Shown here piece by piece: positions 28,946 through 33,665 of a stretch of 64,000 bases of DNA. Position 1 is the first letter of the stretch. Each line of letters opens with the position of its first letter. This DNA is from Halobacteriales archaeon QS_4_66_20. GTDB taxonomy: Archaea; Halobacteriota; Halobacteria; Halobacteriales; Haloarculaceae. The notes below the pieces were generated by a model. It saw nothing but the letters and a program-made list of their open reading frames with translations, was not told the origin of the DNA and did no database searches. Both the position numbers and the translations under genes were made by a program. The DNA lies in the NCBI GenBank assembly GCA_003021015.1, contig PXRK01000078.1, forward strand, positions 1 through 64,000, given 5' to 3'.

Positions 28946-29316
28946 AGTACTACACCGTCGGCCGAGCGGGCAGATAAACCCTGCGAGTTCGGTTGAGTCG
29001 CTCGGAGCGTCTCTCGCTTCGCTCGCCTATACACCGGACGTGATTTGTCTAAGATATCTCGACACAGATCGGGACTTCCAGGGTCGATAACGCTGCTACT
29101 CCATGAGAGCTCCGAGGCGATCTTTCCGGCCTGCCGGCTGGTCACCCCGGGCCGCGGTCCCCTCGAAGCGCGGCCCCCTTCATGCCCCTTCGGGGTGCTA
29201 CTTGCCGTCGTCGGGGTCGTTCTCGGACGGGCGCTCCCGCGCCCGGTTTTGCTCTCAAATACAGCCAGTTTGGATGTAGGTATATCGAATTAATTCCGGC
29301 TAAGCTGTATTAGAGA
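28946..29316. other. Gene-free region bordering the restriction island
   Basis: No credible gene. From 29029 it holds a repeat copy beginning ATACACCGGACGTGAT with the internal block ATCTCGACACAG...GGTCGATA shared with 2735-2893. A GC-rich hairpin-like stretch at 29150-29190 (GGGCCGCGGTCCCC / GCGCGGCCC) could act as a terminator. Sequence from about 29260 turns AT-rich, marking the left side of the island. Confidence 0.5.
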
Positions 29317-29326
29317 ACATATATGT
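29317..29326 (+). promoter_or_regulatory. TATA box for the nuclease-like gene
   Basis: ACATATATGT, centred about 25 nt before the ATG at 29347, in an AT-rich stretch. Confidence 0.5.
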
Positions 29327-29346
29327 AACGTCCGTTCGGCGGACAT

Positions 29347-30066
29347 ATGGAACGACCTGAGTTTCAGGACAACTATTTCAACCCGAATGCAAACCTTCCG
29401 TATGGTGTCACTCCAGAGGAGGTCGGGGAGGCTATCCGGGAGTTCTACGACTTCTATGGTGACTTGAACGAATTTCTGCTCGCGGAGGACCACGGCCGGC
29501 TGGAAACTGTCCTACGGGCGAATAACGCCCTGAGCGACTTCGTGGGGAACGTCGCCACAGAAGAACTGGCGAACGTCTCCGATGCACTCATAGTAAACCA
29601 GAAGCCGGACGGGTTTCCCGACTTACTCCCGCTCGATAACGACGAATACGCCGCGGAGGACTATGATATTCACCACGGAGAAGAAGGTATAGAGACAAAG
29701 TGCAGTAAGTCGAATGGAGGCTGGCAGGCTCATAATAACGAATCAGCATGGTTCATCGTTTTCCGGTACATCCGCGGGGACCCGGAGGAAACTATCGAAG
29801 ATATGGAGCCGATACGGTTCGTGCAAGTGTTGGCGGCGAATCTCGATGAGGATGACTGGAGCCATAGCGGGCGGTCCAATGAATCGCGTCGGACCATTAC
29901 GAGTAGTATCGTAGGTAGCGGAATGCACAAACTTCGTAGTAATCCGATATATGAGGATCCTGACGCGATTACGGGACGCGGGGAGAAGAAAATCGAATAC
30001 CTCCAGCGCCACGCTGCGTTTAACCCGACGTTCGCGGACGAACACCCCGAGTACGTAACCGAATAG
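29347..30066 (+). CDS. Putative type II restriction endonuclease (PD-(D/E)XK type)
   Basis: Encodes 239 residues. I do not recognise a named family, but a PD-(D/E)XK arrangement is visible: PD at 91-92 (GFPDLLPL), then ETK at 116-118 (GIETKCSK), with predicted strands around them and a following polar segment QAHNNES. Codon use includes TTA, ATA and AGT codons rare in the neighbours, and local GC is lower, indicating transfer. It converges on a DNA methyltransferase 28 nt away, the normal context of a type II restriction enzyme. The recognition site cannot be inferred. Confidence 0.7.
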   Translation: MERPEFQDNYFNPNANLPYGVTPEEVGEAIREFYDFYGDLNEFLLAEDHGRLETVLRANNALSDFVGNVATEELANVSDALIVNQKPDGFPDLLPLDNDEYAAEDYDIHHGEEGIETKCSKSNGGWQAHNNESAWFIVFRYIRGDPEETIEDMEPIRFVQVLAANLDEDDWSHSGRSNESRRTITSSIVGSGMHKLRSNPIYEDPDAITGRGEKKIEYLQRHAAFNPTFADEHPEYVTE

Positions 30067-30094
30067 ACCAGTCTTGATGAGGTGTGAATGAGCG

Positions 30095-31048
30095 TCAGGA
30101 GAAGTCCGTGAGCGAAGCGGAGTCGTCGCCCTGCTGAGCGAAGTCGCCCCGGGTTTCGACCGGCGTATCTACTTCCGCGAGATTCGGAATGGCGTTCTCG
30201 GCCATGTTGAAGAACGTATCATCCAGTTCGATGCCGATAGCGTTGTACTCGAGCGCGTGAACGGCAGCGATAGTCGAACCCGATCCCATGAACGGGTCGA
30301 GTATAACGCCCTTCTGGAGGGGCAGGGCGGCATGGCATAGTTCACGCATGAGATACTGAGGTTTCAGATTCGGGTGCGCCTCCGCGTCGTCAGGGTCGGG
30401 GTGAGCGTTCTTGACTATCTCCGTCTCCGCCTTCGGAGTCTTTCCGTCCTCCAGTAGGTCTGTGAACGGTCGTTCTTCGGACTCACGGCGAAGCCCACCT
30501 GTTTGCCATGTATCTAGCGTATCCTGTAACCGGCCGTCGAGCGGCTTGCGGTAGAGGAGCCACGGCTCCCAATAGACTCGGGGCATCGAGGAAACCATAT
30601 CGTATCGCTCATGCGCCCCCTTTGGTCGGTCGCCTCCACGGAGCGTTTTCGTTTTCCGAACCAGCACGTCACGCCGCTCCAGCCCGGCTTCGTCCAACTG
30701 CTTAGACACTTCATGCATGAGTAATTGAGTCGTAGCGACGAACATATGGCCACCCGGGCGAAGGACCCGCTCGACGGCTTCCCCGAAGGTCTTAAAGAAG
30801 TTACGTAGTTTTTCCTTATCACTATCGGATAGGACCGTGAACCGGGGTAACGGCTTCCGTTTATTCCCATCCAGTTCGGGAGGGATACGCCACACGCCAC
30901 CTTTCCCCTCGCGCATCTTCTCGACGTTCGCGGTTTCAAATTCGACCACGCCGTATGGTGGGTCCGTCACTACAGCGTGTATCGAATTTTCGTCGTACTC
31001 TTCCTCTAAGACCTGAAACGCATTCCCATGATGGAGGTCATATCCCAT
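30095..31048 (-). CDS. Site-specific DNA methyltransferase (N4/N6, beta class)
   Basis: Encodes 317 residues from the ATG at 31048 (MGYDLHHGNAFQVLEEE); a longer frame upstream runs across the divergent promoter and is rejected. The catalytic motif DPPYG is at 29-33 and the AdoMet-binding motif DPFMGSGST at about 251-259. This order, catalytic motif first, defines beta-class amino-methyltransferases modifying adenine N6 or cytosine N4. The middle region should hold target recognition. It would protect the host against the neighbouring nuclease. Codon use is atypical for the window. Confidence 0.9.
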   Translation of the reverse strand: MGYDLHHGNAFQVLEEEYDENSIHAVVTDPPYGVVEFETANVEKMREGKGGVWRIPPELDGNKRKPLPRFTVLSDSDKEKLRNFFKTFGEAVERVLRPGGHMFVATTQLLMHEVSKQLDEAGLERRDVLVRKTKTLRGGDRPKGAHERYDMVSSMPRVYWEPWLLYRKPLDGRLQDTLDTWQTGGLRRESEERPFTDLLEDGKTPKAETEIVKNAHPDPDDAEAHPNLKPQYLMRELCHAALPLQKGVILDPFMGSGSTIAAVHALEYNAIGIELDDTFFNMAENAIPNLAEVDTPVETRGDFAQQGDDSASLTDFS

Positions 31049-31132
31049 TATTGAACACCTGCCTTTGGGGCCTCTTATTCCCTCTCTTTCGTTTGAACCT
31101 AGGGGTGTAAGTAGATAGCGGTAGAATGTAGG

Positions 31133-31140
31133 TATAAATT
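31133..31140 (+). promoter_or_regulatory. TATA box for the winged-helix gene in the island
   Basis: TATAAATT centred about 33 nt before the ATG at 31169. A divergent GAATAAG at 31074-31080 is placed about 29 nt before the methyltransferase ATG. Confidence 0.5.
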
Positions 31141-31168
31141 TGTCATTACGTGAGTAACCCGAAGAACG

Positions 31169-31462
31169 ATGGGACAGGTCGAGGAGGACGCTTCCTACGT
31201 AATTCGCTCTCCCCACCGAACTGACGTACTCGGTCGTCTCGCCAAGGGTAATGCAATTCCAGCCCAAATACGCGAGGATACCGGGCAAGAATATTCGCGT
31301 ATCACCGATGCCGTAAACTCTCTGCGCGGCCGCGGCCTGGTAGAACTCCTTGTCCCCGACGAGACTAAGCGTGGTCGAATGTACGGTATCACGAACCGGG
31401 GAGAGGAGGTATGGGAGTATTTGCTGGAGAATAACATGGCCGAAGAACCTAACGCCGGATGA
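31169..31462 (+). CDS. Winged-helix DNA-binding protein, possible controller of the R-M genes
   Basis: Encodes 97 residues. A winged-helix fold is suggested by VIRSPHRTDVLGRLAKG, a recognition helix around YSRITDAVNSLRGRGLVEL, and the wing MYGITNRGEEVWEYLLE. Its position, divergent from the methyltransferase with about 120 bp between starts, and its small size suggest it regulates the module, as controller proteins do in other R-M systems; that is inference. It could instead be an unrelated haloarchaeal regulator carried along. Confidence 0.75.
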   Translation: MGQVEEDASYVIRSPHRTDVLGRLAKGNAIPAQIREDTGQEYSRITDAVNSLRGRGLVELLVPDETKRGRMYGITNRGEEVWEYLLENNMAEEPNAG

Positions 31463-31482
31463 ATTTTCGACTGAAGGCCCTT

Positions 31483-31690
31483 CTATAGCGAATTAATAGC
31501 GTTCCCGAGCGCCAGCGCGCCAGCCGCCGCGAGCACACCGACCGCGAGGATACCGTGTGAGCCGTCGGGCGGCAACTCGATCACGTCCCGCTCGAGGGGT
31601 GGTGTCACAACGCCAACACATCAGCCGGCGTCGAAGCGGTAACCCGACCGCTTGCTGGCGAACGAGCAGTGATACCGACGCACATGGACT
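31483..31690 (-). pseudogene. C-terminal remnant of a membrane-anchored protein
   Basis: A minus-strand frame encodes VVTPPLERDVIELPPDG followed by a hydrophobic helix GILAVGVLAAAGALALGNAI and a stop. Upstream the same frame continues as plausible coding (CSFASKRSGYRFDAG) but is broken by a TGA at 31621-31623, and no start is visible. It looks like the surviving 3' end of a secreted protein with a C-terminal anchor, cut off by the island. Otherwise 31463-31738 has no gene. Confidence 0.5.
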
Positions 31691-33551: not shown

Positions 33552-33589
33552 ACGGTGTCGTAGGGGATTAGAGCGGATAAGAGGCAGGT

Positions 33590-33665
33590 ATACAGCCGGA
33601 CGTAACTCCGTACAGTGCCATGACGCCACCAGCGGAGCCACACCGCCCCGGATACCGATGGATGT
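33590..33665. repeat. Shortened copy of the secF-upstream repeat
   Basis: Begins ATACAGCCGGACGTAACTCC and follows the element at 2735-2893 with an internal deletion (rejoining at TGNCGCCANCANCGG). It lies in the 398-bp gap between the glutathione transferase and the histidine kinase. Confidence 0.55.

Follow-up and report, generated by a model that had tools for sequence, protein, structure and literature searches.

The window analyzed here, a 64,000-nucleotide stretch of contig PXRK01000078.1 (GenBank assembly GCA_003021015.1) from Halobacteriales archaeon QS_4_66_20, contains a three-gene cassette spanning positions 29347-31462. It comprises an intact gene for a predicted PD-(D/E)XK Type II restriction endonuclease of 239 aa (hereinafter R; 29347..30066, forward strand), a gene for a predicted beta-class amino-methyltransferase of the m6A or m4C type of 317 aa (M; 30095..31048, reverse strand), and a gene for a 97-aa winged-helix regulator, the predicted controller of the system (W; 31169..31462, forward strand). 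R and M converge, with their gene ends 28 bp apart, and W diverges from M over 120 bp; this arrangement, which had been described in a first-pass annotation made from the DNA alone, is kept in the complete haloarchaeal loci. The cassette lies in an island (29152..31560, no strand assigned) with a GC content of 0.552, as against 0.662 for the whole window, and the GC3 values of R, M and W are 0.63, 0.65 and 0.57, respectively, as against 0.82-0.90 in four neighboring host genes, which bears out the lower GC and atypical codons reported by that annotation.

DNA searches with the flanks of the island revealed an empty site in a genome of the same genus (G395). Its contig C77 carries an unbroken gene, labeled nucleotidyltransferase-like from a reading of its translation, and has 46 bp at the position of the window's 2.4-kb island. 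Remnants of this gene lie on either side of the island: the left one (42 bp; 29110..29151, forward strand) is 100% identical to C77 and the right one (31561..31665, with an approximate end; forward strand) is 90% identical to it. Since both remnants flank the island and the G395 copy is uninterrupted, we conclude that the island entered the nucleotidyltransferase-like gene, with the low-GC segment replacing 46 bp of it. To the left of 29110, the sequence of the window differs from that of G395. A 63-bp dispersed repeat (window 29028-29089), of which there are about 20 copies in its own genome and in G395, is found at the left edge of the island and may be the mark of a rearrangement or a misassembly in this 86-contig genome. 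Another short dispersed repeat (~36 bp; window 33589-33624) has about 10 copies among those listed for its own genome, and several in G395.

The PD-(D/E)XK motif proposed for R by the first-pass annotation is found exactly where it had been placed, at P91-D92 and E116-T-K118. These catalytic positions (P91, D92, E116 and K118), together with H129, are invariant across 17 aligned archaeal and bacterial relatives of R with identities as low as 26%; R is thus predicted to possess the intact and conserved active site typical of a Type II endonuclease. The same annotation was unable to name the nuclease family, which holds for Pfam, NCBIfam, PHROGs and PDB, where R has no meaningful sequence match (matches to SPC24 in PDB from sequence/profile searches, with E of 0.3, were rejected as chance), but not entirely for PADLOC, whose Type II REase model (REase_II PDLC03564) is weakly matched by R (1.6e-10; best stretch in residues 12-102) and is matched by 14 of the 17 aligned relatives. 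An AlphaFold2 model of R based on 16 sequences (pLDDT 91.0, pTM 0.89) was used for a Foldseek search of PDB, which returned EcoRV chains in all of the top 20 places (best E 4.5e-3). The modeled structure points to a remote EcoRV-like PD-(D/E)XK fold outside any solved family: EcoRV is the only recognizable fold match among solved structures and shares the PD-(D/E)XK active-site logic, but it shows no sequence similarity to R and a TM of ~0.37. The catalytic acids of R are more widely spaced than those of EcoRV, whose regulator is a standard C (control) protein.

M displays the motif order of the beta-class methyltransferases, with DPPY on the N-terminal side and DPFMGSGST on the C-terminal side, in agreement with the class to which it had been assigned. 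It matches PF01555 (8.8e-22) above the curated cut-off, as well as the PADLOC model MTase_II PDLC03215 (2.6e-83), and carries the methyltransferase motifs expected in a Type II restriction-modification (R-M) system. The PADLOC groups matched by R and M give no recognition site. Three central blocks of M, namely TLRGGDRPK (or TMRGGDRPK), MPRxxWEPW and TGGxRR, are common to the archaeal and most bacterial members, which suggests a single specificity throughout the M group. The SMRT motif literature yielded no recognition motif tied to M, and the Prokka label "Modification methylase HindIII", carried by a plasmid relative, was set aside as evidence of specificity.

Among the 392 haloarchaeal genomes that represent the class, 12 have relatives of R, which in 10 cases are of the R1 type. 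M is present in 11 of the 392, namely in the same 10 that carry R and in G347 (L091 2355-3936), which keeps W and M and has R reduced to a 31-aa remnant, R having apparently been lost first. This co-occurrence of R and M has a Fisher p of 5e-19, with genomes treated as independent of phylogeny. Relatives of R are also found on plasmids (those of Acidiphilium, Gordonia, Klebsiella, Citrobacter, Rhizobium, Iamia, Mycobacterium and others) and in nine viral contigs. R and M are separate, adjacent and co-inherited genes, as in Type II R-M systems; based on their co-occurrence, the empty site and the relatives with the same pair, we predict that they constitute such a system, in line with the earlier description of the segment as an R-M island. 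The invariant nuclease residues and the recurrence of the three-gene order in every complete haloarchaeal locus examined argue against a chance assembly, and the cassette appears to have been horizontally acquired. Carriers include Halorussus aquaticus and Halorutilus salinus; in the latter, R has an apparently frameshifted N-terminus (L041, upstream of 5001) and may be inactive.

The small winged-helix protein that had been noted beside these genes is W. It shows matches to HVO_A0261_N (7.8e-7) and MarR_2 (2.1e-4), neither of which reaches its curated cut-off, and its structural model (pLDDT 92.3) has the MarR, ArsR and haloarchaeal RosR regulators as its nearest folds. Every complete haloarchaeal cassette examined has W, always in divergent orientation to M; no relative of it was found in the bacterial and viral-contig R/M loci examined. 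Its relatives at ~45% identity are widespread haloarchaeal regulators that do not adjoin methyltransferases. Membership of W in a methyltransferase-linked regulator family was rejected, since the proteins closest to it elsewhere are ordinary regulators. W has no match to the PADLOC Control_protein models and is probably a winged-helix controller unrelated to the bacterial C proteins.

The candidate operators of W are boxes of the form GTARGTA, all on the forward strand in the window. One (GTAGGTA; 29276..29282), a probable W operator with the extended match GTAGGTATATCGAATTA, lies upstream of R. The divergent M-W promoter region contains box 1 (GTAAGTA; 31107..31113), which is invariant in 10/10 main-clade loci, and box 2 (GTAGGTA; 31128..31134) at a distance of 21 bp, a spacing kept in 8/10 of those loci. 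A weaker third box (GTGAGTA; 31150..31156) follows 22 bp beyond box 2; comparable weaker boxes are found in several loci and the box is degenerate in others. Across the regulatory regions of 12 haloarchaeal cassettes (24 regions in all), GTARGTA occurs in 19, as against 1.7 expected from Markov-resampled sequence (maximum of 8 in 1000 trials), and in an ungapped alignment of eight loci the M-W boxes are 100% conserved, as against an average of 62% in the other columns. A leave-one-out matrix, trained only on the M-W boxes of the other loci and scanned over the whole window, placed the R promoter first (24.3, the best score in the 64 kb) and boxes 1 and 2 second and third, with the third M-W box scoring 10.4; in most other loci, too, the R-promoter and M-W regions have the top matrix scores or tie for them. 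Gaps are seen in some cassettes: L037 has one M-W box and the R box of L039 is degenerate. The 2.89-Mb genome has just two copies of the extended consensus, one of them at the R promoter; with this rarity, and only 6 occurrences of GTARGTA in the 64 kb, the box is unlikely to be an ordinary haloarchaeal promoter element.

The box also appears to track the regulator. Two cassettes (L042 and L046), in which W has diverged to ~30% identity, are without the box, even though their R and M retain 63-66% identity; therefore, the box follows W. A search of this diverged pair found no convincing common operator. Box-like sites upstream of M are kept in the R-less G347 copy and in a viral copy, namely that of HRTV-DL1, a tailed virus of Halorubrum lacusprofundi, which carries M at 78% identity (L062 6001-6939) with a strong box upstream (score 25.3); a W gene was not seen in the part of the sequence that was read. 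The authors of the HRTV-DL1 study described the protein as an adenine-specific methyltransferase that is identical to one of the host, and suggested that it shields the genome of the virus against R-M systems of the host (PMC10544981). The viral M is possibly an anti-restriction gene placed under a host controller.

The R promoter offers a further clue to the action of W. A likely core-promoter element, GTATTA (29307..29312, forward strand), lies at -40 from the start of R, with the operator box starting 31 bp upstream of it, and the same element is found at -38 to -44 in 9/10 main-clade loci. The distances from box to GTATTA in nine loci are 11, 11, 21, 31, 41, 42, 42, 42 and 43 bp (in L044 there are two GTATTA elements, at 42 bp and at 11 bp), such that the spacing between the R box and the core element amounts to 1, 2, 3 or 4 helical turns. 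At a 10.5-bp period, the phasing vector has a length of 0.95, for which the chance probability is ~1e-5 if the nine loci are taken as independent and 0.003-0.005 for four distinct positions or clusters; these nine loci are related and provide only four distinct positions. Shifts of the box by whole turns would fit contact with the transcription machinery on one face of the helix, and this suggestive phasing therefore favors activation of R by W over simple blocking.

Our preferred reading, to which we assign a probability of roughly 0.7, is that the cassette is an acquired Type II R-M system with W as a dedicated winged-helix controller that binds the GTARGTA boxes at the R and M-W promoters. 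Under this proposal, M would methylate a short site in the host DNA, and R would cut incoming DNA lacking this mark; we infer that cleavage and methylation take place at one common site. W would bind the single box upstream of the R core promoter and the two or three boxes between M and W. Upon entry of the cassette into a cell, M would most likely be made first; W would then build up and, after this delay, activate rather than repress the R promoter, acting from a box that lies on the same helix face, while limiting its own, and perhaps M's, transcription via the boxes spaced 21-22 bp apart. The more specific proposition, which we regard as somewhat probable, is that this is the first archaeal R-M controller circuit, in which a MarR/RosR-like winged-helix protein has taken the place of the bacterial C protein and uses GTARGTA boxes to regulate R and M together with its own gene, activating R from 1-4 turns upstream of its core promoter.

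The most serious competing explanation, though an unlikely one, accepts the R-M system as real and has W mainly repressing R and M, thereby keeping a costly system at a lower level of expression instead of setting its timing. W does resemble the MarR/ArsR-type folds, which are mostly repressors; the R boxes of L036 and L041 abut the core element, and at least one R promoter (that of L045) has an inverted box downstream of GTATTA. However, the R box is always upstream of the core element and lies at integral turns up to 42 bp from it, which is better suited to an activator. That W is an unrelated neighbor, and that a host regulator or M itself binds the boxes, is improbable: the wide spread of its ~45%-identical relatives free of methyltransferase linkage, and the persistence of the box on the viral M with no W found nearby, would be in keeping with such a view, but every cassette retains W, even G347 after the decay of R; the box is missing where W, rather than M, has diverged; and the extended consensus recurs only once elsewhere in the genome. 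We give very little credence to the cassette being a selfish, decaying or inactive R-M remnant devoid of present function. Such decay is seen elsewhere, in the R remnant of G347 and the remnant of a second nuclease in L042 (see below), and the distribution is patchy (10/392 genomes), but in the window the three reading frames, the catalytic residues, the promoter elements and the boxes are all intact.

The circuit envisaged in our preferred reading can be compared with the Type II R-M systems under C-protein control (PvuII, BamHI, EcoRV, Esp1396I and Kpn2I), which likewise encode R and M separately, use a small DNA-binding regulator dedicated to them (a predicted one in the present case) and have repeated boxes both in the promoter region of the regulator itself and upstream of R; the shared boxes at the corresponding promoter regions of the window are the predicted counterparts of the latter. 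The first-pass annotation had considered the layout unusual for a controller-type system. The convergence of R and M is not unusual, being common among C-regulated systems (PMC3850674), but the position of the regulator is: the known C proteins are of the Xre-like helix-turn-helix type, with genes that usually lie directly upstream of R and in the same direction, whereas W is an archaeal winged-helix protein, outside the C-protein family by its fold and its lack of a Control_protein match, and its gene lies outside the R operon, divergent from M in all loci. This regulator layout is backed by its conservation and by the operator-like boxes at both promoter regions, which that annotation had not seen. 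The survey of Anton and Roberts counted zero C proteins in 519 archaeal genomes (PMC10609329 Table 1); as its profiles were built from REBASE proteins, a winged-helix controller would have escaped it. Our literature search, which was of incomplete coverage, returned no paper describing a winged-helix R-M controller. RptR is also a non-C-family regulator devoted to R-M genes; however, it is a repressor from diverse bacteria, and the word "winged" is absent from the paper describing it (PMC12255303).

The enzymes belong to a known kind, the Type II R-M systems, and the novelty lies in the proposed control circuit. The cassette bears on how archaea establish such a system in a new cell without killing themselves, and suggests that archaea may have their own type of controller for such risky gene sets; if true, the same control logic has been invented independently in another domain of life. 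With a specific regulator and 7-bp boxes at defined positions, the proposal makes a clear prediction, open to testing in any haloarchaeon amenable to genetics. The restriction-enzyme family itself has no Pfam or NCBIfam coverage, and its relatives include those on mobilizable plasmids of Klebsiella. In the relatives from bacteria and viral contigs (e.g., Acidiphilium pACMV5, Klebsiella pCol4401-L117, Gordonia and Rhizobium), R and M are convergent in nearly all cases and M is 42-53% identical to that of the window. The Acidiphilium relative differs in having a canonical C protein of 73 aa that overlaps R and matches Control_protein (7e-20).

Several haloarchaeal cassettes possess a second tandem nuclease paralog (R2), which is ~33-41% identical to R with the PD...ExK signature intact. 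It is found at 5741-6565 in L037, 6382-7104 in L044 (reverse strand), 7545-8318 in L045 and 7888-8736 in L046, with a remnant at 5705-5902 in L042. Some copies have a C-terminal C2H2 zinc-finger-like tail, and the cassettes bearing R2 have one single methyltransferase for both nucleases. A stand-alone R2 lies behind an m5C methyltransferase and a gene for a 403-aa protein in L047 (5120-8401), and the same R2 is found in L048. The R of the Psychrobacter relative (L023) is likewise paired with an adjacent m5C methyltransferase and is fused to an HTH. If M and these m5C enzymes protect the same site, the recognition site would contain cytosine.
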